Shown here one piece after another: positions 20,986 through 45,277 of a stretch of 47,276 bases of DNA. Position 1 is the first letter of the stretch; the number at the start of each line of letters is the position of its first letter. The position numbers were made by a program, and so were the translations under genes. This DNA comes from a virus, in the IMG/VR virus record IMGVR_UViG_3300027973_000079, positions 1 to 47,276 of that record; one strand, given 5' to 3'. The notes below the pieces were generated by a model. The model was not told the origin of the DNA. It searched no databases and saw nothing but the letters and a program-made list of their open reading frames with translations.

Positions 20986-23900
20986 ATGTTGTCTTTTAAA
21001 GAAATATTAGATGAAGGTGGCAATGTCAAATTAAAGACTGGTGAGACTGCTGTTCCAATTAAAATCACTCCAGAAAATAGAGCACAAGTTCAAAAAGATA
21101 CATATGATATGCTTCATGCAATGCATCAATCATTTAATAAAGCATATGGTGCAGATCTATTTGGTAAAGACGCAAAAGCATTAGCAACTGGAACAACATA
21201 TTCTGGTTCGACTAAAAGTCTAATGAACAAAGGTATTTCTGATGTTGAGTTTACTACACATAAAAAAGAAGCTGGCGACATTGATGTAAAGATTCCACAA
21301 GAACATATGCCAACAATAGCACAGCATTTAACTCCTGGGCAAAAGTTTGGAAAATACACATACGTTGGAATGAAGAGTGGTGGCGCAGAGCATCATGCGA
21401 TTATGCGCCATGATAGTGGAGAACATCATCAGCTAGATTTTGAGAAGTCTGCATATAGTGACCATGAGCCTTCAGAGTTTGATCAGTTTGCACATTCAGC
21501 CGATTGGAGTGATACAAAACTTGGTATCAAAGGCGTACATCATAAGCAACTATTAAATGCTGTTGGAACAGATCAACACAAATTTTCAATTCTATATGGT
21601 ATTGGATCAAGAACAAATAAAGACGCTGCTTGGGAAAATAGCATTGAAAAAATGACAAAAACATTGTTTGGATCAAATGCTGATGCTAAACAATTACATT
21701 CTTTTCAAGGCATTGTACAACTAATTAAAAAACACATACCTAAGTCACATCATCAAGCAATTTATGATAAGTTTAAGGGTGATGTAACTAAAACAAATAA
21801 ACATATCAATAACAAGCCAGCATTAGAACTTTTGAGAAAGCAGCTTGGAGTGAAAGATACTGTTGCTGAAGACGCATTAAACGAATTTGATCATAAAAAA
21901 CATGTTGATTTGATTCGCGCCCATATGCACAAATTGGGTTATGATCAACTTGGCGATGGAACAGATGCACAAGTGTTTGCTAAAAAGACAGGACCAGTTA
22001 TTAAAATACTAGTACCAGAATCTGGTGACATTAAAACTGCTGACAATACTTTTCTAGCATTTTATGATTATTGTCAAAAGAATAAAAGCAATCCACATCT
22101 ACCAAAATTTGTAGAAGTTCAGGGACAGCATCATGCAACATTTGAAATGGATGGTGAACAGTTTCGACAAATAGCAATGGAACGATTGCAAGAACTAGAT
22201 CCAGATTATGATGATATGATTTTAGATATGGTGGATGATGCTGAACAGAATAAGCCACTAAATCAGGAATATAAAAAATATGCAAAGTTTTATGAAACGA
22301 TGAAATCGATTATATCGACTGGTCGTAAATTAGATTTTAGTATTGATATTATGGATTTTAATAATAGCAATGTAATGCAAAGAGGTAAAACATTAGTGAT
22401 CATGGATCCATGGGTTACTACTAGTTTAGCAAAAGAAAGTTTTAATCCTATCTTAGAAAAGAAAGATGATGTACACCACGCTAGTGTTATTCCTTTGACT
22501 GGATTTTCTCCAATATCGCACATGGGACATGCACTTGATCTTGGTGCAGCTCTAAAGAAATTGCCTGGTGCAAAGCACATTGGCGTTTCAAATAAAGCTG
22601 ATCTTTACTCTGGAGAAGAAAGAAAAGATATTCTTTCCAAACAATGGAAGCAATCTAATCTACAAACGCATTTGGTAAAGTCTGGTGGAGAAACTATTGC
22701 TAATGCATATAATGCTTTACCTAAGACTGGCGAAAAGCATTTAAACATTCTAGTCGGACATGATAGAAAAGATTTTGCACAAGGACTAAAGGCATCATTA
22801 GAAGCTGGTAAGATTAAAGAGATGGGAGACAATAGATGGACTTCTATCACTATTCATCATCCAGAAGACTCTGATAGATCACATGGAATGTCTGGAACAG
22901 CAATGAGAACTGCTGCAGAAAAGAATGACTTAGAACAATTTCATAAACATCTAGGACCAATGTTTTCTAGTGCTGAAGCAAAGAAGCACATGGAAAAGTT
23001 TCAGACTGGTCTTTCATCGGGACAAATCAAAGTGAAGAGACCAGGCAATAATCCAAAGAAAGCAGTAAAAGAAGACTTAGATGAAGCAAAGATCAAACTA
23101 ACTGCTGCACAAAAAATACAGAGAGCAATTGAAAGAGAACGAGAGAAAAACAAGCCATATGCCGCAGCACAAGACAGAGAGAGGAGATTAACTGCAATGA
23201 TTAATTCTCACGATCAAAAGAAAAAAGAAGACGAGAAAAACGAATCTGTTTTGGGCTATTCGCAAAGACTTGCAAGAGGTCAAAGATTTAAGAGAATGCA
23301 GAAGCGTTTGCTCAGAACAAGAGTTGCTCAAGCGAAACGATTTGCTGATCCTAAACGTCTAAAAGGTCGTGCAGTTAAAGATGCATACAAATTGTTTAGG
23401 GCTAGAATTACTGGCGGCAAGAATTATGCATCATTAAGCACAGGCGAAAAGATTAGCGTAGACACAAGACTACAAAAGATGTTGCCTGGAATTAAAAAAC
23501 TTGCAGCAAGACTAGTTGGTGCTGAAAGACAAAAAGAAATGCAAAGAAAACAAAAAGCAATGATGAGAAGAGAAAGCACAATAGATGAATTGTTTTCTCA
23601 GACTTTTAATTTGAATGAAGTTGCTCAAGATTCAGATATTAAAAATAAAGAAGGCACTCAGCCTAAAAAATATTATGCTGGACTAGATAAAAATACAAAA
23701 GAATTACGATCAGCTCATTTTGAAAAGAATGGACCAAAGTCGGATTCAGATAAGTCTGGTTATGAAGATGCACCAGGAGATAAAGAAGCGAGAGAAAAAG
23801 GAATGCCTCAATCCAAACACACACTTAAATTTAAAAAGATGTATGGCGAATCTATGGATAGAAAAGAATCATCAAGACTAGACCAATTAGTTCGTATGGG

Positions 23901-25215
23901 ATTAGCTGACACAAAGATGTTATCTGTTCTCAAGCGTTCAATGGAGAAACTAAAATCTGGCGATCAATTAAGCACACAAGAAAAGTCTGCAACAAATGAT
24001 TTGCTATCTACACTTCTAGATATGGTTCTATCTTCTGATAGTCTATTTGGAATGACAAGAAAGCAATTGCAAAAAGAATCTGTTGATGATAAATTTAAAA
24101 AATACTTTAAAGAGTCTATGGATGATTATGAAGATGAATACGAAGACTCTCCAGAAATGGATGGAGTCGAAATGGCTCAAATCGAATTAGCAAACATGAT
24201 TGAAGATGCAAACGATTTATTAGATATGCTTGATGAAATGGACGAAGAACCAGATCAGTGGGTTCTTTCAAAGATTACAAAGGCTGCTGATTACATTGCA
24301 ACTGCATCAGACTATTTACAATTTGAAGATGGTTTCAATCCAAATGAAGTTGATGATGAAGATGACGATGGAGAATACTCTGGAGAAATCGATGATTCGG
24401 TTCTTGACCAATACACAATGGATGCACCAGCAAGTGATTATGGTTCAGCATATGAAGAATTTAGACCAATCATTGAAGAAATTGAGGGACTTCAAAAGAA
24501 AGCTGAAAAGTCTGGCATTTCATATAGCATATTGAAACAAGTATACAATCGTGGTATGGCTGCATGGCAGGGCGGACATCGTCCAGGAACTACACCACAG
24601 CAATGGGCATTTGCTAGAGTTAATTCATTCATTACAAAAGGTCAAGGTACCTGGGGTGGAGCGGATAGTGACTTAGCATCTAAAGTAAAAAAGAATGAAG
24701 AATTCTCTAAATTTGCTGAAGCATTAGAATGGGGAACAGATGCACTAAGAATATCTTATGCAAGAGCAACTCCAGGACAAAGCCCAGATATCATTACGGC
24801 TAAATATTCAGCAAATAGTGTAATGAATACATTGAATGATATCACTACACAAAGAAAGAAAAAGATTTTTGATGAAGAAACTTCATGTTGTGGTGATTGT
24901 AAAGATGAGATTGTCGAAACTGTAGATTGGGAAAATATTTTAGTTGAAGCAGATTATCAAGGTAAAACTGTTAAATTAAATGATCCTTTTAGAACACCAG
25001 GCGAAAATAAAAAGTTTGGCGTTTATACTATGGGACCAAATGGTGATGTTGTGATTGTTCGATTTGGTGATCCTAATATGGAAATCAAACGTGACGATCC
25101 AGACCGTAGAGCAAGTTTCAGAGCAAGACATGGATGTGATAATCCTGGACCAAAGTGGAAAGCAAACTACTGGTCGTGCTATCAATGGCGTGCTGGTTCC
25201 AAAGTAGATAGTTAA
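20986..25215 (+). CDS. Giant multidomain protein: nucleotidyltransferase, kinase-like, HxGH transferase and phage modules
   Basis: The 1409 residues split into recognisable parts. Residues 45-260: pol-beta-type nucleotidyltransferase features, GS at 74-75, GDIDV with D98 and D100, LDF with D151. Residues 305-480: kinase-like, GDGTDAQVF, PVIKIL, catalytic-loop-like D457...N462 and D474-P-W. Residues 498-690: HxGH adenylyl/cytidylyltransferase, H512-M-G-H515 and S636-G-T-A-M-R641. Residues 700-860: basic helical module. Residues 888-955: a GTQPKKYYAGL module. Residues 1176-1230: a VYNRGMAAWQGGHRPGTTP module. Residues 1322-1409: a C-terminal module with GDPNMEIKRDDPDRR. LxE-G/A sites at 10, 700 and 1321 resemble prohead-protease cleavage points. 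A packaged polyprotein is inferred; single domains are known from T4-like phages. Confidence 0.8.
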   Translation: MLSFKEILDEGGNVKLKTGETAVPIKITPENRAQVQKDTYDMLHAMHQSFNKAYGADLFGKDAKALATGTTYSGSTKSLMNKGISDVEFTTHKKEAGDIDVKIPQEHMPTIAQHLTPGQKFGKYTYVGMKSGGAEHHAIMRHDSGEHHQLDFEKSAYSDHEPSEFDQFAHSADWSDTKLGIKGVHHKQLLNAVGTDQHKFSILYGIGSRTNKDAAWENSIEKMTKTLFGSNADAKQLHSFQGIVQLIKKHIPKSHHQAIYDKFKGDVTKTNKHINNKPALELLRKQLGVKDTVAEDALNEFDHKKHVDLIRAHMHKLGYDQLGDGTDAQVFAKKTGPVIKILVPESGDIKTADNTFLAFYDYCQKNKSNPHLPKFVEVQGQHHATFEMDGEQFRQIAMERLQELDPDYDDMILDMVDDAEQNKPLNQEYKKYAKFYETMKSIISTGRKLDFSIDIMDFNNSNVMQRGKTLVIMDPWVTTSLAKESFNPILEKKDDVHHASVIPLTGFSPISHMGHALDLGAALKKLPGAKHIGVSNKADLYSGEERKDILSKQWKQSNLQTHLVKSGGETIANAYNALPKTGEKHLNILVGHDRKDFAQGLKASLEAGKIKEMGDNRWTSITIHHPEDSDRSHGMSGTAMRTAAEKNDLEQFHKHLGPMFSSAEAKKHMEKFQTGLSSGQIKVKRPGNNPKKAVKEDLDEAKIKLTAAQKIQRAIEREREKNKPYAAAQDRERRLTAMINSHDQKKKEDEKNESVLGYSQRLARGQRFKRMQKRLLRTRVAQAKRFADPKRLKGRAVKDAYKLFRARITGGKNYASLSTGEKISVDTRLQKMLPGIKKLAARLVGAERQKEMQRKQKAMMRRESTIDELFSQTFNLNEVAQDSDIKNKEGTQPKKYYAGLDKNTKELRSAHFEKNGPKSDSDKSGYEDAPGDKEAREKGMPQSKHTLKFKKMYGESMDRKESSRLDQLVRMGLADTKMLSVLKRSMEKLKSGDQLSTQEKSATNDLLSTLLDMVLSSDSLFGMTRKQLQKESVDDKFKKYFKESMDDYEDEYEDSPEMDGVEMAQIELANMIEDANDLLDMLDEMDEEPDQWVLSKITKAADYIATASDYLQFEDGFNPNEVDDEDDDGEYSGEIDDSVLDQYTMDAPASDYGSAYEEFRPIIEEIEGLQKKAEKSGISYSILKQVYNRGMAAWQGGHRPGTTPQQWAFARVNSFITKGQGTWGGADSDLASKVKKNEEFSKFAEALEWGTDALRISYARATPGQSPDIITAKYSANSVMNTLNDITTQRKKKIFDEETSCCGDCKDEIVETVDWENILVEADYQGKTVKLNDPFRTPGENKKFGVYTMGPNGDVVIVRFGDPNMEIKRDDPDRRASFRARHGCDNPGPKWKANYWSCYQWRAGSKVDS

Positions 25216-33969: not shown

Positions 33970-35748
33970 ATGAAAAATGAAATTGTTTTAGACTATAGTA
34001 GAGACTCGCTCTTTGATGAATTGGGAATTAAGAGACTCAAAGAATCGTATATGCGAGAAGATGAAGTATCACCACAGGAGAGATTTGCGTATGTTTCAAA
34101 CACTTTTGGATCGAATAAAGATCATGCTCAGCGTTTGTACGATTATTCTAGCAGGCATTGGCTTAGTTATTCTACTCCCATTCTTAGTTTTGGTCGCTCT
34201 AGGCGTGGCCTTCCTATCAGCTGCTTTCTTCCGTTCTTACATGATAGTGCAGAAGGATTAGTAGACTGTCTTGCTGAGGTGAATTGGCTTTCAATGCTAG
34301 GAGGTGGAGTTGGAATTGGTATCGGCATTCGCAGTTCGGATGATAAGTCGGTTGGAGTCATGCCCCACCTTCGCACATATGACGCATCATCTCTCGCTTA
34401 TAGACAAGGTAGGACTCGTCGCGGTAGTTACGCTACATACCTTGATATTTCTCATCCCGACATTCTTCTATTTCTTGAAATGAGAAAGCCTACGGGCGAT
34501 CCTAATCTTCGTTGCTTGAATCTACATCATGGAATCAATATTCCAGATGCATTCATGAAGATCATTGAAAATTCAATGCTGGATAAGAACTTTGATGATT
34601 CGTGGGAGTTGCGTGATCCACATAGCAATGAGGTGCGAGAAGTAGTTTCTGCTAAAGACTTGTGGCAGCGCATTCTTGATATTCGTATGCAAACTGGTGA
34701 GCCTTATCTACACTTCATTGACGCAAGCAATAGAGCAATGCCACAGTTTCAAAAAGACTTAGGCTTGTCAATTAAACAAAGCAATCTATGCTCAGAAATT
34801 ATTCTAGCTACAGATAGAACCAGAACTGCCGTGTGTTGCTTGTCATCAGTTAATTTGGAGTATTTTGATGAATGGAAAGATCATCCAACTTTCTTGCGTG
34901 ATATTGCTGAAATGCTTGACAATGTTCTTCAGTATTTCATTGATAATGCGCCTACAGCCGTGGAACGTGCAAGGTTCTCTGCCAGTCGTGAGCGGAGTAT
35001 TGGCATCGGTGCTCTTGGCTTCCATGCTTATTTACAACGAAATAACACACCGTTCGAATCAGCGCTCGCAGTAGGAAGAAATAGACAAATTTTTAAACAC
35101 ATTAGAGAAGGATTAAACAATGCAAATCTTGAATTGGGCAAAATACGAGGTGAAGCGCCTGACGCCGTTGGTACTGGCTTACGATTTAGTCATCTTATGG
35201 CCATTGCTCCTAATGCTAGTTCTTCCATCATTATGGGGAACACTAGCCCTAGTATTGAGCCTTATCGGGCTAATGCTTATCGGCAAGATACTCTTTCGGG
35301 ATCTTCGTTAAATAAGAACAAATGGTTAGATAAAATAATTAAAAATATTGTAAAGAATGATGAAGAGTATCAATCTATTTGGTCAAGCATTATTGCTAAC
35401 GATGGTAGTGTACAACATTTAGATATTCTTGACGATTGGACAAAGGATGTATTCAAGACTTCTATGGAGATTGATCAGCGTTGGCTAGTTAATCATGCTG
35501 CAGATAGACAAGAATACATAGATCAAGCACAATCATTGAATCTATTCTTTAGACCAGACGTTAATATCAAATATCTACATGCTGTACACTTTCAAGCATG
35601 GAAGCAAGGTTTAAAGACTCTTTACTATTGTCGTTCTGAGAAGATCGGTAAAGCAGACAAAGTTTCAAAACGAATTGAACGCGAAGTTATTAAAGAATTA
35701 GATATGAAAGCACTTATTGAAGGAGATACTTGTTTAGCTTGCGAATGA
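33970..35748 (+). CDS. nrdA: Ribonucleotide reductase alpha subunit, compact class I
   Basis: At 592 residues it lacks the N-terminal ATP-cone of E. coli NrdA (761). Key residues are present: ISCFLPF (first redox Cys), NLCSEI (radical Cys), CCLSSVNLE (second redox Cys), the tyrosine pair in TLYYCRS, and the C-terminal shuttle CLAC. It reduces ribonucleotides with NrdB, encoded at 38146. Without the cone, allosteric dATP shut-off is probably lost, as in other phage enzymes. Confidence 0.93.
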   Translation: MKNEIVLDYSRDSLFDELGIKRLKESYMREDEVSPQERFAYVSNTFGSNKDHAQRLYDYSSRHWLSYSTPILSFGRSRRGLPISCFLPFLHDSAEGLVDCLAEVNWLSMLGGGVGIGIGIRSSDDKSVGVMPHLRTYDASSLAYRQGRTRRGSYATYLDISHPDILLFLEMRKPTGDPNLRCLNLHHGINIPDAFMKIIENSMLDKNFDDSWELRDPHSNEVREVVSAKDLWQRILDIRMQTGEPYLHFIDASNRAMPQFQKDLGLSIKQSNLCSEIILATDRTRTAVCCLSSVNLEYFDEWKDHPTFLRDIAEMLDNVLQYFIDNAPTAVERARFSASRERSIGIGALGFHAYLQRNNTPFESALAVGRNRQIFKHIREGLNNANLELGKIRGEAPDAVGTGLRFSHLMAIAPNASSSIIMGNTSPSIEPYRANAYRQDTLSGSSLNKNKWLDKIIKNIVKNDEEYQSIWSSIIANDGSVQHLDILDDWTKDVFKTSMEIDQRWLVNHAADRQEYIDQAQSLNLFFRPDVNIKYLHAVHFQAWKQGLKTLYYCRSEKIGKADKVSKRIEREVIKELDMKALIEGDTCLACE

Positions 35749-35777
35749 TAAAAGTAACTATAAAAAGGATAACTATA

Positions 35778-36143
35778 ATGTATGAATATAAAGCAAAGGT
35801 TGTCAAAGTTGTTGACGGAGACACAATAGATTTAGATATTGATGTTGGTTTTAATATCACAATACGTCAACGTGTTCGATTGATGGGAATTGATACACCA
35901 GAATCTAGAACTAAAGATTTAGTAGAAAAGGAAAAGGGTTTAAAAGCAAAGCATATTACAGAAGGATATGCTCTTAAAGCAAAAGAAACCGTAGTTAAAA
36001 CATACAAAGATGACAAGTATGGTAGAATGCTTGTCGATTTAGTTTGTGATGGTGTAAACGTCAATCAGAAATTGATTGACGGCGGATTTGCATGGAATTA
36101 CGACGGCGGTCATAAAGATAAAGATTTGACAAAATTGATTTAA
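35778..36143 (+). CDS. Thermonuclease (staphylococcal nuclease-like)
   Basis: The ATG at 35778 after AAAGGAT gives 121 residues; the frame from 35730 overlaps nrdA. Motifs VVKVVDGDTIDLDID, VRLMGIDTPESR and DDKYGRMLVDLVCDG match SNase-type nucleases, with the catalytic Arg, Asp, Glu and second Arg all present. The lack of a signal peptide argues for a cytoplasmic role, such as degrading host DNA or processing phage DNA. It begins the block inserted between nrdA and nrdB. Confidence 0.87.
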   Translation: MYEYKAKVVKVVDGDTIDLDIDVGFNITIRQRVRLMGIDTPESRTKDLVEKEKGLKAKHITEGYALKAKETVVKTYKDDKYGRMLVDLVCDGVNVNQKLIDGGFAWNYDGGHKDKDLTKLI

Positions 36144-36245: not shown

Positions 36246-37034
36246 ATGCATTACAAATCAATCTTCATATCTGATGTTCATTTGGGATCTAAAGAATGTA
36301 AGGCTGATAGACTAAACAATTTTCTAAAAGAAAATAGTTGTGATACATTATATCTTGTTGGTGATATTATTGATGGTTGGAAAATACAACAAAATAAACT
36401 ACATTGGAAGCAAAGCCACTCTAATGTAATTCGTAGATTTTTAAACTATAGCAAAGATGGCAGTAAAGTAATCTATATTGCTGGTAATCATGATGAATTC
36501 TTACGCCCATTCATGCAATATAAACTTGCATTTGGTCGTATTGAAATTCATAATCAGTATGAGCATCTAGGTGTTGACGGTAAAAGATATCTAGTAACCC
36601 ATGGTGATCTATTTGATGGAATTACTAGACTTGCACCTTGGCTAGCATTTTTAGGAGATAAAGCATATGACTTTATTTTATCGATTAATAGCAAATACAA
36701 TTGGATACGCCATCGTTTTGGTTTTGGGTACTTTAGTCTTAGCAAATACCTTAAGCATAGAGTAAAGAAAGCTGTAGACTTTATCTTTCAATTCGAAAGA
36801 AATCTAGCAGAGTATTGTAAGAAGCGTGGATTCGATGGCGTTATCTGTGGGCACATACATCATGCAGAGATTAAAACAATAGATGGTATAATCTATATGA
36901 ATGATGGTGACTGGGTTGAATCATTGACTGCATTAGTTGAACATGTAGATGGAAGATGGGAAATCTTAACATATACTAAAGGAGACTCAAATGTGGTTAC
37001 TACTATTGATAGCGGTGCACTCGACGAATCCTAA
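36246..37034 (+). CDS. PlcP/LpxH-family metallophosphoesterase
   Basis: Start at 36246 after AAAGGAG. The 262-residue protein has the full calcineurin-like motif set: SDVHLG (D10, H12), GDIIDGW (D40), GNHDE (N81, H82), THGD (H119) and GHIHH (H203, H205). The tail YMNDGDWVESLTALVEHVDG is typical of proteins annotated as UDP-2,3-diacylglucosamine diphosphatase-like, which include PlcP, the phospholipase C used by bacteria to turn phospholipids into diacylglycerol under phosphate stress. The adjacent GT4 glycosyltransferase is the usual partner (Agt) of PlcP. True LpxH activity is the alternative. Confidence 0.8.
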   Translation: MHYKSIFISDVHLGSKECKADRLNNFLKENSCDTLYLVGDIIDGWKIQQNKLHWKQSHSNVIRRFLNYSKDGSKVIYIAGNHDEFLRPFMQYKLAFGRIEIHNQYEHLGVDGKRYLVTHGDLFDGITRLAPWLAFLGDKAYDFILSINSKYNWIRHRFGFGYFSLSKYLKHRVKKAVDFIFQFERNLAEYCKKRGFDGVICGHIHHAEIKTIDGIIYMNDGDWVESLTALVEHVDGRWEILTYTKGDSNVVTTIDSGALDES

Positions 37035-37164
37035 TGACATACCTGGTAGACTATCTTTAGAATTTGAAACAAAAGAATCATGTGAACATAGTTTAAGCAC
37101 TTTAAAATATTGGTTAAAGTTTGACTCATTTAAGGTAGAAGGTAAATGCGTAAAAAAATTCTAA
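36991..37164 (+). CDS. Small protein nested between PlcP-like and Agt-like genes
   Basis: A 57-residue ORF whose ATG at 36991 has a strong ribosome-binding site (AAAGGAG, 36978-36984). It overlaps the phosphoesterase gene by 44 bases and the glycosyltransferase by 19. MWLLLLIAVHS looks like a short hydrophobic or signal segment, followed by LEFETKESCEHSLSTL and a Cys near the end (two Cys in total). Small phage proteins of this form exist; function unknown. Confidence 0.6.
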   Translation: MWLLLLIAVHSTNPNDIPGRLSLEFETKESCEHSLSTLKYWLKFDSFKVEGKCVKKF

Positions 37165-38144
37165 TTGTCACAGACAATCTAAAGGATCAAATAAATGGGG
37201 TTGTCGCGACTTTTAAAAATATTGAAATATGCGCTGATTCTGATGGGTACGATTTTGTTTATATTGATCCCGGGCAGTTCTCTTATATTAATTGTCCTGG
37301 TTATGCTGAAGTTAAAATCGCTTGGCCTAGAGGAATCGGAAAAAGAATTGAAGAGATTAATCCAGATCACATTCACATTGCTACGGAAGGGCCCGTAGGT
37401 CTAGCAGCAAGAATTTGGTGCGACAGAAATGGATACTTTTATAATACAAGCTATCATACGAAGTTTCCAGAGTTTCTGAATACGATATATAAGATACCCA
37501 CAAAATTAACATATCGTTATGTTAGATGGTTTCATAAACATTCTGGTAGAGTCTTAACTACCACAAATTCTATGGTTGATGAATTAAAGACAAGAGGCTT
37601 TAGATCTGATATAATCCCATGGACTAGAGGTGTAAATAGAGAACAGTTGAATCCAAGCGTAAGGCATCTGAAACAAATTATTCCAAAAGTTCTTTATGTT
37701 GGTAGAGTTTCAAAAGAGAAGAATCTAGATGATCTTTGCCAATATCAAAATGAATTTAATATTGTTATCGTTGGCGATGGACCATATAGAAAAGAATTAG
37801 AGAAGAGATATTCTAGAGTAGAATTTGTTGGATATAAGATTGGTGTCGAATTAGCTAATCATTATGCATCTGCAGATGTATTTTGTTTTCCAAGTAGAAA
37901 CGATACATTTGGAATAGTAATGATTGAAGCAATGAGTCTTGGTACACCAGTTGCAGCATATGATGTTACTGGACCAAAAGATATTGTTGTAAATGGATTG
38001 AATGGATATGTTGGAACTAGTTTATACGAATGCATTGAAGGCTGTTTGTATTTAAATAGAGTTAAAGTACAAGAGTCTTCAAAGAAATGGACTTGGAAGA
38101 GTTGCTGGGATATTTTTAAAGATAACTTAATTAGAGCGAGATAA
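37146..38144 (+). CDS. GT4-family glycosyltransferase, Agt-like
   Basis: The 332-residue GT-B protein begins with ILIVTDNLKDQINGVVATF, has HIHIATEGPVGLAAR, then SYHTKFPEF, and the GT4 C-terminal signature VLYVGRVSKEKN, VGDGPYRKEL and SRNDTFGIVMIEAMSLGTP. The N-terminal HTKFPEF is typical of glycosyltransferases acting on diacylglycerol or related lipids. Following the PlcP-like gene it probably adds a sugar to diacylglycerol to give a glycolipid. A role in sugar decoration of lipopolysaccharide is the alternative. It ends one base before nrdB. Confidence 0.8.
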   Translation: MRKKILIVTDNLKDQINGVVATFKNIEICADSDGYDFVYIDPGQFSYINCPGYAEVKIAWPRGIGKRIEEINPDHIHIATEGPVGLAARIWCDRNGYFYNTSYHTKFPEFLNTIYKIPTKLTYRYVRWFHKHSGRVLTTTNSMVDELKTRGFRSDIIPWTRGVNREQLNPSVRHLKQIIPKVLYVGRVSKEKNLDDLCQYQNEFNIVIVGDGPYRKELEKRYSRVEFVGYKIGVELANHYASADVFCFPSRNDTFGIVMIEAMSLGTPVAAYDVTGPKDIVVNGLNGYVGTSLYECIEGCLYLNRVKVQESSKKWTWKSCWDIFKDNLIRAR

Positions 38145-38145
38145 A

Positions 38146-39132
38146 ATGTCAAAAATAAAAAACGTAATGTTGGGAAGAGATGAATTTAAACCATTCAATT
38201 ATCCTTGGGCATATGACGCATGGCTAAAGCATGAGCAGTCGCATTGGTTGCATACCGAGGTTCCAATGGCAGAAGACGTAAAAGATTGGAAGAAGAAGCT
38301 AACAGAACAAGAAAAGTCATTTCTTACACATATATTTCGATTTTTCACGCAAGGCGACATTGACGTTGCTGGTGGTTATGTTGGAAATTATTTGCCATAT
38401 TTTCCTCAACCAGAAGTAAGAATGATGTTGCTTGGCTTCGCTGCAAGAGAAGCATTACACGTTGCTGCATATTCGCATTTAATTGAAACACTAGGACTAC
38501 CAGAAACAACTTATAGTGAGTTTCTAGAGTATCAACAAATGCGCGAGAAGCACGAATATCTTTTAGACATTTCATCAAAGAATGGAAACAAAGGATCTAT
38601 TGCAAAGCACATTGCTGTGTTTTCTGCATTCACAGAAGGTATGCAATTGTTCTCTTCGTTTATTATGCTATTGAACTTTCCTAGACATGGAAAGATGAAA
38701 GGTATGGGACAGATCATTACATGGTCAATTGTTGATGAAACACAACACGCTGAGTCTATGATTAAATTGTTTAGAACTTACATTGAAGAAAACAGAGAAA
38801 TTTGGGTTGACGAACTAAAATCAGAGATATATACTATCGCAGAGAAAATGGTTCAGCTAGAAGATAAGTTTATTGATTTAGCATTTAGTATGGGGTCGAT
38901 GGAGAATCTATCTTCTGAAGACGTTAAAGAATATATTAGATACATTGCTGATCGTAGACTTATTTCACTTGGCATGAAAGGAATCTTTAAACGTAAAAAG
39001 AATCCTTTGCCATGGGTTGAAGAAATGATTAATGCACCGACACACACTAACTTTTTTGAAAACCGTGCTACCGACTATGCAAAGGGTGCATTGAGCGGTA
39101 AATGGGATGACGTATGGGGCAAAGCAGCATGA
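38146..39132 (+). CDS. nrdB: Ribonucleotide reductase beta subunit
   Basis: The 328-residue ferritin-like protein has the di-iron ligands in EALHVAAYSHLIE (Glu, His, with the radical-type Tyr in AYSH), FTEGMQLFSS (Glu) and DETQHAESM (Glu, His). It generates the tyrosyl radical used by NrdA. nrdA lies 2.4 kb upstream, separated by thermonuclease, PlcP-like and Agt-like genes. It overlaps the next gene by four bases. Confidence 0.94.
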   Translation: MSKIKNVMLGRDEFKPFNYPWAYDAWLKHEQSHWLHTEVPMAEDVKDWKKKLTEQEKSFLTHIFRFFTQGDIDVAGGYVGNYLPYFPQPEVRMMLLGFAAREALHVAAYSHLIETLGLPETTYSEFLEYQQMREKHEYLLDISSKNGNKGSIAKHIAVFSAFTEGMQLFSSFIMLLNFPRHGKMKGMGQIITWSIVDETQHAESMIKLFRTYIEENREIWVDELKSEIYTIAEKMVQLEDKFIDLAFSMGSMENLSSEDVKEYIRYIADRRLISLGMKGIFKRKKNPLPWVEEMINAPTHTNFFENRATDYAKGALSGKWDDVWGKAA

Positions 39133-39363: not shown

Positions 39364-39999
39364 ATGGCATTTCTCGTAGCAAATCTTCCTCCAGTACATT
39401 GTTATGTTAGGAAAGAATTTCTTTATGACTTTGAAAAAGGATTTTTTGAATACGAGCCTTGCATTTGGGTTTCAATCAAATCAATTCGTGGACAAGCATT
39501 TCGTATAGAAGCATATCTTCCAAGATATGGTGCGCTATATGATAAGTTGCCTCTTCATGCATACGTTTCGCGAAATAAGAATTTAGATGCTAAGAAGTTT
39601 CTTCCTTTAGATTATCTTCAGATTTGGGATTGCTTTAGTCACGATATTACTGTGATTAAGAAATCATTTCTTTCAAATTTGACAGCAAAGTTTTACGCAA
39701 AGAACAAAGAGTGGCATAGTGGTGGATATCTATTCACGGTAGATAATGGTGCTCCAGATTCAAATATTTTAGATACTACATACGCAGAATGGCCCGAAGA
39801 CCACAAGTCTTTTAATTTTATCGAACTAGATAATGGGCAATATGCAGCACAACCAAATAATCGTACAATATTTTTGGATGCAGCTTCGAATCCTAAAGAA
39901 TTGAGTTTTCCAGACTTTAAAGTTTGCACTAAGAAATATATTGTCGAACAAAATTCAAAATGGGCTTTAGGTGATACCAACACAGTTACTTACGAATAG
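39364..39999 (+). CDS. Conserved T4-like phage hypothetical protein
   Basis: The 211-residue protein starts MAFLVANLPPVHCYVRKEFL and has GQAFRIEAYLPRYGALYDKLP and LPLDYLQIWDCFSHD. This set is conserved among aquatic T4-like phages next to the nrd genes. No catalytic motif is visible; the tail has an aspartate/aromatic-rich segment. Function unknown. Confidence 0.75.
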   Translation: MAFLVANLPPVHCYVRKEFLYDFEKGFFEYEPCIWVSIKSIRGQAFRIEAYLPRYGALYDKLPLHAYVSRNKNLDAKKFLPLDYLQIWDCFSHDITVIKKSFLSNLTAKFYAKNKEWHSGGYLFTVDNGAPDSNILDTTYAEWPEDHKSFNFIELDNGQYAAQPNNRTIFLDAASNPKELSFPDFKVCTKKYIVEQNSKWALGDTNTVTYE

Positions 40000-40802: not shown

Positions 40803-41492
40803 ATGGAAGATGATAAGCCTGTTTCAATTTTTAATTTTAACGACAACAAAAAAGCCAGACAGCCAAAAGCAGTAGCGCAATTATATACATTCTATCTTAC
40901 TGGTCAAATCACCAGTTCAGAAGATTATATCGAATGGTTCGAAACTATTCGAAATGCATCTCAGATGGACATTGTTAAAATTCACATCAATTCTCAAGGC
41001 GGCGATTTGTTTACCGCAATTCAATTTTTGAGAGTTCTTGGAGAAACGCAAGCACATGTGATTTGTTCCGTAGAAGGCGCTTGCATGTCTGCAGCAACTA
41101 TGATATTCTTACCAGCAGATACACATGAAATCTCAGAACATTCCATGTTCATGTTTCACAATTACTCTGGTATCACTATGGGTAAGGGTGGTGAAATGTA
41201 CGACAACATTACGCACGAACGTAAGTGGTCTGAAAAGATTCTACGCGGAGCATATGAGGGGTTCTTGACCGAAGAAGAAATCAAGTCCATATTGAACAAC
41301 AAAGATATCTGGATGAGCGGTGAAGAAGTAATTAAACGATTGAAAGGTAAAAAGGCAGAGAAGTCTGCTAATAAAACTAAGGTGAAAAAAGATGACGTTA
41401 AACCAGAACCAGTTGCAGACAAACAACCTACAAACGACGGACCAGTCGCTCCAGCAACAAAGCGACCAGCAAAAAAGCCAAAGCAATCCTGA
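40803..41492 (+). CDS. clpP: ClpP-like serine protease
   Basis: The 229-residue protein has the ClpP core: VKIHINSQGGDLFTAIQFL, the nucleophile Ser in GACMSAATMIF, and the catalytic His in FMFHNYSG. The third residue is likely an Asp in the helix region after residue 140. A lysine/proline-rich tail (190-229) is phage-specific and is read in a second frame by the next gene. ClpP-like proteases occur in several T4-like phages; whether it acts on virion or host proteins is open. Confidence 0.85.
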   Translation: MEDDKPVSIFNFNDNKKARQPKAVAQLYTFYLTGQITSSEDYIEWFETIRNASQMDIVKIHINSQGGDLFTAIQFLRVLGETQAHVICSVEGACMSAATMIFLPADTHEISEHSMFMFHNYSGITMGKGGEMYDNITHERKWSEKILRGAYEGFLTEEEIKSILNNKDIWMSGEEVIKRLKGKKAEKSANKTKVKKDDVKPEPVADKQPTNDGPVAPATKRPAKKPKQS

Positions 41493-42195
41493 AAGTGTTT
41501 TTCTAGTGTCATCAGCAATTCATGCAAAGCATGGAGTCTATGACACAGAAACAAGATTCAAACAAACGATTGAAACTTGTAAATCAATTCGCGAAAGGTG
41601 TGATACTAAAATCATCATTCTTGATGGCGGATACAAAGATTTAACTTCCGAAGAAAAAGCTGAACTTGTAGATTACATTGACGAATTCTACACGTTTAGT
41701 GAAGAAGAGATTGTTAAACAGATTCAAAGCATTCCTAATCACGATATCGTAAAGAACATGATTGAACTAGTCATGTATGGATCATTTTACGATAGAGTTG
41801 CTGAAGAGGGTTGGCGAGAGAAATATAAACGAATCTTTAAAATGTCTGGTCGTTATACTTTGAATGATACTTTTAATTATCAAAAGCACATGGATGCTAA
41901 AGATAAGATTATCATTCGTGGTCCATTCACTAGTCAATTTAGTCCAGACACAACTGGTGGAGTGACTCTACAGTATATGTCACGGCTTTGGAGTTTTGAT
42001 GCATTTCTATTGCCGTACATTCGGGACATTTATGTTGACATGTTTCAGCATATGAATGATCAGCTTGCGAAAAAAGGTTATATTGATATTGAGCATTTGC
42101 TATTCCATCATTTGGATCTGTCTCTAATTGAGAATATTGGTAAGCTAGGTCTTGATGGTAATATTGCACCCAATGGCGTGAGGATTTCAGATTGA
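41392..42195 (+). CDS. Putative glycosyltransferase-like conserved protein
   Basis: The frame opens at 41392, overlapping the ClpP tail by 101 bases; the first 35 residues are Gln/Ser-rich and low in complexity, so a later start (for example GTG at 41507) is possible. The conserved part starts FLVSSAIHAKHGVYDTE and includes RIFKMSGRYTLNDTFN and IIRGPFTSQFSP. The KMSGRYxLND block is found in viral and bacterial sugar-transferase-like proteins. Role: probable surface or DNA glycosylation, tentative. Confidence 0.5.
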   Translation: MTLNQNQLQTNNLQTTDQSLQQQSDQQKSQSNPESVFLVSSAIHAKHGVYDTETRFKQTIETCKSIRERCDTKIIILDGGYKDLTSEEKAELVDYIDEFYTFSEEEIVKQIQSIPNHDIVKNMIELVMYGSFYDRVAEEGWREKYKRIFKMSGRYTLNDTFNYQKHMDAKDKIIIRGPFTSQFSPDTTGGVTLQYMSRLWSFDAFLLPYIRDIYVDMFQHMNDQLAKKGYIDIEHLLFHHLDLSLIENIGKLGLDGNIAPNGVRISD

Positions 42196-43007
42196 ACTAC
42201 AAAATCTTTCAAATTTGTTTTGAGAAGGATCAAATCGAAAGAGTTGATCCTTTGTTTACTCCATTCGACAATACAGAGAATCTTCATCCTGAGTTGAGAG
42301 AGTATCAATCATTTAAAAGAATTTACGAAGAAGGTCATGCTAAGGGACTAGATGCATTTGGTGTGTTTGGTCCAAGATGGCAAGAGAAGCTAAGGTTTAG
42401 TGCTGAAACAATTACTAATGCGATTGATAACAATCCTGGGTATCATGTTTACGTTTTCAATCATGCTAGAGTTGTGGATGCATTGACGCATAACGTGTGG
42501 GAGCATGGTGAAATCTTTCACAAAGGAATTCAGCGAGTGACTGAATCAGCATTGAAAGCTGCTGGCTATGACACAAAAGTTTTAAATGAAGTAATGGGAA
42601 GCAATGTTTGCTATTCAAGTTATTTTGTTGCTAAAAAAGTGTTCTGGCGCGATTACTTAGACTTTCTAGATGATATGAAATCCAGACTTGAAGATTTGAC
42701 TGGTGAAGATGCTAGAATATATGGTTCATCAGCAAACTATAGCAGAGACAAAGAATTGACGATGTTTCCATTCATTGTTGAAAGATTGTTTTCTACCTTT
42801 CTTCATCTAAATAAAGAGTATAAGGTTTATAGCAATCCTTATGATTACTCTGTATATCAAGTTCCTGAGTTTGAAAGTGTATTAGAAACACTAAATCATT
42901 TGAAAAGACAGTCTATAGAGACTAAAGACATAGACACATATAAACGTTGGCATGGTTTAAGAGAACGAATTTTAATGGATCATCCTAGAGTATTCCATTT
43001 GGATTGA
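42192..43007 (+). CDS. Putative glycosyltransferase-like conserved protein
   Basis: The start is TTG at 42192 (TTGA overlap); no other start lies near. The 271-residue protein begins KIFQICFEKDQIERVDPL and has FTPFDNTENLHPELREY and VFGPRWQEKL. I associate this with glycan-related transferases of T4-like viruses. The gene pair 41392/42192 probably acts together. No DxD site is obvious. Confidence 0.5.
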   Translation: MNYKIFQICFEKDQIERVDPLFTPFDNTENLHPELREYQSFKRIYEEGHAKGLDAFGVFGPRWQEKLRFSAETITNAIDNNPGYHVYVFNHARVVDALTHNVWEHGEIFHKGIQRVTESALKAAGYDTKVLNEVMGSNVCYSSYFVAKKVFWRDYLDFLDDMKSRLEDLTGEDARIYGSSANYSRDKELTMFPFIVERLFSTFLHLNKEYKVYSNPYDYSVYQVPEFESVLETLNHLKRQSIETKDIDTYKRWHGLRERILMDHPRVFHLD

Positions 43008-44653: not shown

Positions 44654-45277
44654 ATGGAATTTTTAACAGAAGATGTAACAAAACAGTTGCTACCAAAAGT
44701 AAAAAACTTAGAAGATTGGCATGAGCAATTATTGGAAGTGTTGCCTCAATATGAAATTGATACACCAAATAGAGTTGCAGCATTCATTGCACAATGTGGG
44801 CATGAATCAGCAGGATTCACAGTTCTACAAGAAAATCTAAATTACTCTGCAGATGGACTAAAAAAGATTTTCGGTAAATACTTTCCAACAGCAGAACTTG
44901 CAAAGCAATATGCAAGAAAACCAGAGATGATTGCAAATAGAGTTTATGGAAATCGCATGGGTAATGGCGATGAAGACTCTGGTGACGGATACAAATATCG
45001 AGGTAGAGGTATCGTACAAATTACTGGTAAAAACAATTACTCTAAATGTTCTATTGCACTATTTGAAGATGAAACGCATTTACTAGAAACCCCAGACTTG
45101 CTACTAGAACCACACTATGCGATACACTCTGCATGTTGGTTCTGGAATGCTAGTCATCTAAACGCATTAGCAGACTCTGGCGACATAAAGACAATGACAA
45201 AAAGAATCAATGGTGGTTACTTAGGCTTAGAGGATAGACTTGCACATTACAACCACGCACTAGAGGTTTTAGCATGA
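44654..45277 (+). CDS. GH19-family endolysin (chitinase-like lysozyme)
   Basis: Start at 44654 after GGGAGAAA. The 207-residue protein has the GH19 landmarks RVAAFIAQCGHESAGF (catalytic Glu at residue 52), YKYRGRGIVQITGKNNY and MTKRINGGYLGLEDR. Such enzymes hydrolyse the glycan of peptidoglycan during host lysis. There is no signal peptide, so a holin is needed; a small membrane protein follows directly. Confidence 0.9.
   Translation: MEFLTEDVTKQLLPKVKNLEDWHEQLLEVLPQYEIDTPNRVAAFIAQCGHESAGFTVLQENLNYSADGLKKIFGKYFPTAELAKQYARKPEMIANRVYGNRMGNGDEDSGDGYKYRGRGIVQITGKNNYSKCSIALFEDETHLLETPDLLLEPHYAIHSACWFWNASHLNALADSGDIKTMTKRINGGYLGLEDRLAHYNHALEVLA

Follow-up and report, generated by a model that had tools for sequence, protein, structure and literature searches.

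The closest described counterpart of the genes analysed here is the bacterial PlcP-Agt pathway, represented by PA3219-PA3218 of P. aeruginosa, PlcP of S. meliloti, PB7211_983/PB7211_960 of SAR11 HTCC7211 and Agt of A. tumefaciens. In this pathway, by which bacteria short of phosphate exchange phosphorus-containing membrane lipids for sugar lipids, PlcP converts phospholipid to diacylglycerol and a phosphate ester, and Agt combines the diacylglycerol with a UDP-sugar to give a glycolipid (PMC4796936, PMC8528852, PMC8231724). PA3219 and PA3218 function as PlcP and Agt1, respectively (PMC8528852). The phage cassette described below resembles the bacterial genes in protein families, gene order, motifs and frequent Pho-box-type control. 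It differs in its carriage by T4-like phages, in a virus-only 57-aa gene that overlaps both enzyme genes, in that it can adjoin nrd genes, PstS and a phosphate porin, and in the presence of a GT2 glycosyltransferase instead of Agt in some relatives. The cyanophage genes pstS and phoA, of which pstS is under host PhoBR, are likewise phage phosphorus-stress genes with host Pho regulation (PMC10976474). These act on the uptake of outside phosphate, whereas the PlcP-Agt cassette would mobilise phosphorus of the host membrane. Pelagibacter phage Mosig EXVC030M encodes a PlcP-type protein (Mosig_00120, 50% identical) adjoining a PstS-family gene; it has no adjacent Agt and is annotated as a putative UDP-2,3-diacylglucosamine hydrolase.

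The stretch of DNA analysed, referred to as the window, is a virus record of 47,276 nt and T4-like type, whose gp43 DNA polymerase is 53% identical to the polymerase of cyanomyoviruses. An earlier note on the window had described a phosphoesterase gene followed by a glycosyltransferase gene between nrdA and nrdB. The coordinates and order of both ORFs held exactly, as did their placement, with an additional SNase-type ORF located in the same interval; the note overlooked a third, overlapping gene. The genes of the region are as follows.

33970-35748, plus strand: nrdA, ribonucleotide reductase large subunit (context)
35730-36143, plus strand: SNase-type nuclease, between nrdA and the phosphoesterase gene (context)
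36246-37034, plus strand: PlcP-type phospholipase C (calcineurin-like phosphoesterase), 262 aa; Metallophos PF00149, E 5e-14
36978-36984, plus strand: Shine-Dalgarno sequence AAAGGAG of the overlapping small gene
36991-37164, plus strand: overlapping small gene, 57 aa (MWLLLLIAVHSTNPNDIPGR...CVKKF), overlapping the phosphoesterase 3' end and the glycosyltransferase 5' end
37146-38144, plus strand: Agt-type GT4 diacylglycerol glycosyltransferase, 332 aa; Glycos_transf_1 PF00534, E 8e-25, and Glyco_transf_4
38146-39132, plus strand: nrdB, ribonucleotide reductase small subunit (context)

Several other ORFs of the window also have relatives or partial matches. The ORF at 39364-39999 has a likely relative in locus L010 (3086-3718) that matches phrog_3704, labelled ferredoxin and auxiliary metabolic, and its cluster was found near PlcP in 18 loci. 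The ORFs at 41392-42195 and 42192-43007 encode adjacent conserved proteins without a Pfam or PHROG match, and their relatives lie near PlcP on the opposite strand in L040 and L049. A 1409-aa protein (20986-25215) partially matches several unknown families as well as a PHROG with the label cytidyltransferase.

The phosphoesterase contains all of its metal motifs (SDVHLG, GDIID, GNHDE, HGD and GHIHH), as had been claimed for a calcineurin-type enzyme, and the metal ligands are invariant or nearly so across viral and cellular relatives. The individual residues are located as follows.

36273-36281, plus strand: metal motif SDVHLG, residues D10 and H12
36363-36365, plus strand: metal ligand D40 (GDIID)
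36486-36491, plus strand: N81-H82 of GNHDE, with the canonical His where LpxH has Arg (GNRD)
36600-36602, plus strand: metal ligand H119 (HGD)
36852-36860, plus strand: metal ligands H203 and H205 (GHIHH)

A complete two-metal site with GNHD served as a criterion for membership in the PlcP family, and the window protein meets it. The best match among plasmid records was a P. aeruginosa gene (56% identity) followed by a glycosyltransferase gene and then an adenylate cyclase gene. This gene order fits the chromosomal PA3219-PA3218-PA3217, the last of which is cyaB. The phosphoesterase is also 48% identical to an S. meliloti gene adjoining sinI/sinR-type genes; plcP of S. meliloti sits beside sinI/sinR. 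Agt lies directly behind PlcP in 39 of 80 cellular loci selected by the phosphoesterase.

The rival identification is LpxH, a UDP-2,3-diacylglucosamine diphosphatase, in which case the gene pair would alter lipid A or lipopolysaccharide. LpxH shares the calcineurin-like fold and the metal site, named phages annotate the phosphoesterase as LpxH, and LpxH is both the closest solved fold and the sole PDB sequence match (23.7 bits). Against this, LpxH formed its own branch (100/99) in a tree of 79 sequences, with the window phosphoesterase on the other side among the PlcP set, and LpxH carries GNRD in place of GNHD. The phosphoesterase scored 34.5 bits on the LpxH HMM TIGR01854, below the curated cut-off of 190 bits, and in 19 PlcP-holding genomes the LpxH genes scored 182-338 bits on this HMM and the PlcP paralogues 34-53 bits. 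The cellular neighbours of the phosphoesterase relatives are Agt-type glycosyltransferases. Because tree, HMM scores and synteny agree, the phosphoesterase is identified as PlcP, apart from LpxH. The LpxH identity is rejected and the accompanying lipid A reading is very unlikely; a firm placement within true LpxH, which the earlier note had set as a refuting outcome, was checked by tree and HMM and not obtained. The predicted model of the phosphoesterase has a mean pLDDT of 80 with a weak cap region, and its nearest solved fold, LpxH (Z ~19, 15-20% identity), is the expected one since LpxH is a sister family and the PDB searches listed no PlcP structure. Membership of the window protein in the PlcP family is therefore shown, and hydrolysis of phospholipid to diacylglycerol is inferred. 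A single cellular PlcP, from a Methylotenera MAG contig, grouped with the viral sequences in the tree, on a long branch, which may reflect a host link to Methylophilaceae or may be an artefact.

The glycosyltransferase had been described as a GT4 enzyme with an HTKFPEF motif, and this held, the motif corresponding to residues 104-110. Its two catalytic residues are located as follows.

37455-37457, plus strand: catalytic H104 (YHTKFPEF)
37902-37904, plus strand: catalytic Asp253 (FPSRNDTFG), the Asp variant of the GT4 signature as in SAR11 Agt

In SAR11 Agt, a biochemically studied enzyme, the dyad is His104-Asp256 and the motifs read GRVAXEKN and FPSXTDTFG (PMC8231724). The window protein has the H104 and D253 dyad with GRVSKEKN and FPSRNDTFG, each motif departing from the published consensus at a single fixed position. 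Residues found or named essential in SAR11 Agt are Gly16, Gly82, Gly85, His104, Thr162, Arg163, Arg190, Lys195, Asp256, Thr257, Phe258, Gly259, Glu264 and Trp320 (PMC8231724). All 14 have counterparts in the window protein (G18, G82, G85, H104, T160, R161, R187, K192, D253, T254, F255, G256, E261 and W317), and the Asp-to-Glu and Glu-to-Trp spacings are identical in the two proteins. The four SAR11 residues docked to diacylglycerol (His104, Thr162, Arg163 and Trp320) correspond to H104, T160, R161 and W317, again with matching spacings. This correspondence was drawn by motif and spacing, without alignment to the SAR11 sequence.

In a quick tree without bootstrap, the viral glycosyltransferases form a single clade (100) within a clade of PlcP-neighbouring glycosyltransferases (99) that also holds P. 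aeruginosa Agt1, and the Agt2-type (gene beside plcR) and MgtA-type GT4 proteins fall outside the latter. A search of 375 genomes from two classes used the glycosyltransferase as the only query, so that the choice of loci would not be limited to PlcP neighbours; PlcP adjoined it in 49 of the 60 best cellular loci. An identity as a lipopolysaccharide core enzyme or another GT4 was considered and is unsupported, as the protein nests in the PlcP-neighbouring Agt clade; grouping with core enzymes in the absence of PlcP/Agt neighbours, the second outcome that would have refuted the pair, was checked by tree and synteny and not obtained. The window protein is an Agt-type family member, and its transfer of sugar from UDP-sugar to diacylglycerol is inferred.

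The phosphoesterase and glycosyltransferase ORFs are separated by a gap of 111 nt, the length of which is conserved in many relatives because it holds the overlapping gene at 36991-37164. This small gene is present in 95 of 141 distinct viral loci. In its overlap-free part, substitutions at the three codon positions were 0.39, 0.28 and 0.54, with a median dN/dS of ~0.10, and this substitution pattern shows that the gene codes for a protein under purifying selection. It was seen in viruses only and behind PlcP only, and no copy was detected among the cellular PlcP loci examined. A search seeded with the small gene alone gave 79 new loci, 78 of which hold PlcP, the remaining one being cut at the small gene itself, and only 31 of which have GT4. 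The small gene therefore keeps closer company with PlcP than with the glycosyltransferase, and its 57-aa product is most likely a dedicated PlcP partner, a role that remains inferred. No convincing match was found in Pfam, PHROGs or named phages. The predicted fold is beta-beta-alpha-beta, with a pLDDT of 85 for the best model and 61-68 for the others; a fold search of the model gave nothing below E 0.6 and no known relative, so no fold is claimed. Two cysteines are invariant among the aligned small proteins. A role as membrane anchor was an early suspicion, which is left undecided since the hydrophobic start is modelled as a beta strand.

Other ORFs occupy the small-gene slot in some phages. 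A different 55-aa two-cysteine ORF (MYILVALQ...YVCLKK) is found there at L153:5048-5776 with the following 200 nt and at L158:8692-8910, and phage Mosig has an overlapping 72-aa ORF in this position.

Scans of IMG/VR returned at least 599 stretches for the phosphoesterase and 398 for the glycosyltransferase. The T4 major capsid family gp23 is present in 14 of 39 large phosphoesterase contigs, which are therefore phages. The 141 distinct viral phosphoesterase loci correspond to 72 clusters at 90% identity. Directly behind the viral PlcP is a GT4 (84 loci) or a GT2 (43 loci), giving 127 of 141 and never both; most of the remaining 14 loci end at or shortly past PlcP. The viral PlcP thus has a gene for phosphorus-free lipid synthesis as its neighbour, a trait that is common in the PlcP family without being obligatory. 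The donors and acceptors of GT4 enzymes vary, and the glycolipid product is less sure in the 43 loci with GT2. The cassette lies between nrdA and nrdB in only 12 of the 141 loci. The insertion between these genes, which had been read as a sign of a link to nucleotide supply, is thus one arrangement among many and is not the key to function.

Further genes were observed around the viral PlcP. In L389:4156-4869 and 42 other loci, the GT2 that replaces GT4 behind PlcP and the small gene shows weak TIGR04283, GT21 and GtrB-like matches; compared with a Gemmobacter GT2 near PlcP, the identity is only 25% over 48 residues. A class-I amidotransferase or BPL_N-like protein is encoded near PlcP on the same strand in L072:7625-8269 and 32 other loci, and genes for an AhpC/TSA peroxiredoxin and for AhpD-like proteins are repeatedly found close to it (L409:5347-5889, L103:4344-4850).

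A link of the cassette to phosphate is supported in related phages by adjacent PstS and phosphate-porin genes and by Pho-box-type repeats. PstS was identified in 11 of the 39 large PlcP contigs, always on the same strand as PlcP and 134-6,856 nt from the cassette. In 10 of the 11, on contigs of 69-335 kb, it lies within 3.3 kb (combined p ~2e-6, or ~1e-5 without two related contigs), and one PstS example exceeds the equivalog cut-offs. A phosphate-selective porin (PF07396) occurs in the same runs, for example in the orders PstS-porin-PlcP-GT and PlcP-GT-PstS-porin. PstS was not found in the 86-kb contig L002, a near-twin of the window. A control of 17 polymerase-selected T4-like contigs contained no PstS and the phosphoesterase in three; these contigs are shorter on average, so the support is weak only.

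Pho-box-type repeats were scanned as two CTGTMAY half-sites, 4 bases apart, with at least 12 of 14 matches on the coding strand within 150 nt upstream. The repeat, with an exact 11-base period, was present upstream of PlcP in 52 of 138 viral loci, and most copies lie at -42 to -60; seven other half-site spacings gave counts of 1 to 10. Counted per PlcP cluster at 90% identity, 34 of 68 carry it. It was also present before PstS (13 of 21), in 0 of 263 cases before GT4, GT2, porin, nrdA, nrdB, AhpC, AhpD, GATase, SegE and SNase, and in 10 of 358 before all other genes. These counts are not independent events, as the sequences are related to one another. The strict E. coli consensus, applied earlier to both strands, gave a weak excess only; the CTGTMAY form with the spacing and gene-family controls was decisive. 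The window cassette itself has no Pho box (best site 9/14), nor has any other cassette copy between nrdA and nrdB; this is a regulatory trait of many PlcP members and not a requirement for PlcP membership. From the gene order and the absent Pho box, it is inferred that the window cassette is probably co-transcribed with nrdA/nrdB, and so would act in every infection and not in starved hosts only. Pho boxes predicted in phages by bioinformatics do not always function and need binding tests (PMC10976474). Use of host PhoB by the related phage cassettes is inferred.

The cassette is likely a phage lipid-remodelling module that serves phosphorus supply by converting host phospholipid to diacylglycerol, a phosphate ester and glycolipid; activity, substrates and phosphorus flow are inferred. 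PlcP would cleave host glycerophospholipids to diacylglycerol and a phosphate ester (glycerol-3-phosphate, phosphoethanolamine or similar), and Agt would transfer sugar from UDP-sugar onto the diacylglycerol, keeping the bilayer intact and removing the diacylglycerol build-up. The net effect would be replacement of phospholipid by glycolipid, with membrane phosphorus directed toward the nucleotide pool and phage DNA synthesis. The phosphate ester would still require a host phosphatase or phosphodiester pathway. The earlier proposal of a lipid-remodelling PlcP/Agt-like pair is thus supported for family identity and synteny, with activity and effects on infected-cell lipids inferred. Its suggestion of phosphate release for DNA synthesis needs qualification, as PlcP yields a phosphate ester and not free phosphate.

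Two other readings of the module were considered. In the first, the module changes the host surface through a glycolipid or other glycan, blocking superinfection or altering adsorption, and phosphorus release is a by-product. Surface modification is common among phage glycosyltransferases, the GT2 of the alternative slot is weakly similar to GtrB-like O-antigen conversion families, and bacterial lipid changes can affect phage attachment (PMC9938194). This reading is unlikely, however, as the Pho-box repeats and the linkage to PstS and the phosphate porin indicate phosphorus, and in the known systems the substrate of Agt is diacylglycerol (PMC8231724, PMC4796936). In the second, diacylglycerol build-up or a change in charge loosens the membrane for lysis or lysis timing; from known chemistry it is inferred that PlcP makes diacylglycerol and that glycolipids alter membrane charge. 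Against this, the neighbours of the cassette are nucleotide and phosphate genes and not the endolysin gene of the window (44654-45277), the glycosyltransferase would use up diacylglycerol, and Pho-box control in relatives is unexpected for a lysis gene. A lysis role is therefore very unlikely.

For the preferred reading, a module for phosphorus supply, the firm elements are the family identity, active sites and PlcP-then-glycosyltransferase order, the PstS and porin linkage, the upstream repeats in many relatives and the coding status of the small gene. Weighing against it are the absence of activity, expression or lipid data, the window copy without a Pho box and the failure to find PstS in L002. 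A bolder reading is that a large group of T4-like phages carries a self-contained phosphorus island composed of PstS, a phosphate-selective porin, PlcP, a phage-only partner and an interchangeable GT4 or GT2, in many of them under the PhoB of the starved host, which would turn host phospholipid into sugar lipid and feed membrane phosphorus to phage DNA, with the 57-aa protein a new obligate PlcP accessory. Taken as a whole, this reading could as readily prove wrong as right.

The enzymes are already known; the conserved Pho-linked phage cassette with its phage-only third protein is unreported in the open-access literature searched. No report of phage plcP or of lipid remodelling as an auxiliary gene was found there, subscription papers and preprints being outside the scope. 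A viral metatranscriptome from Lake Baikal lists one 'lpxH' auxiliary gene (PMC9611531), which may be a misnamed PlcP-type gene. LpxH labels in named phages hide these plcP genes. The abundance of plcP serves as a marker of phosphate stress (PMC9457565), and viral copies would bear on the reading of such surveys. The DNA of lytic phages demands a great deal of phosphorus, and the known phage phosphate genes pstS and phoA leave untouched the large store in membrane phospholipid. Should the proposed function be true, the hundreds of phage contigs with a Pho-linked PlcP-Agt cassette would imply that viruses are able to pay for their replication by remodelling the membrane lipids of the host.
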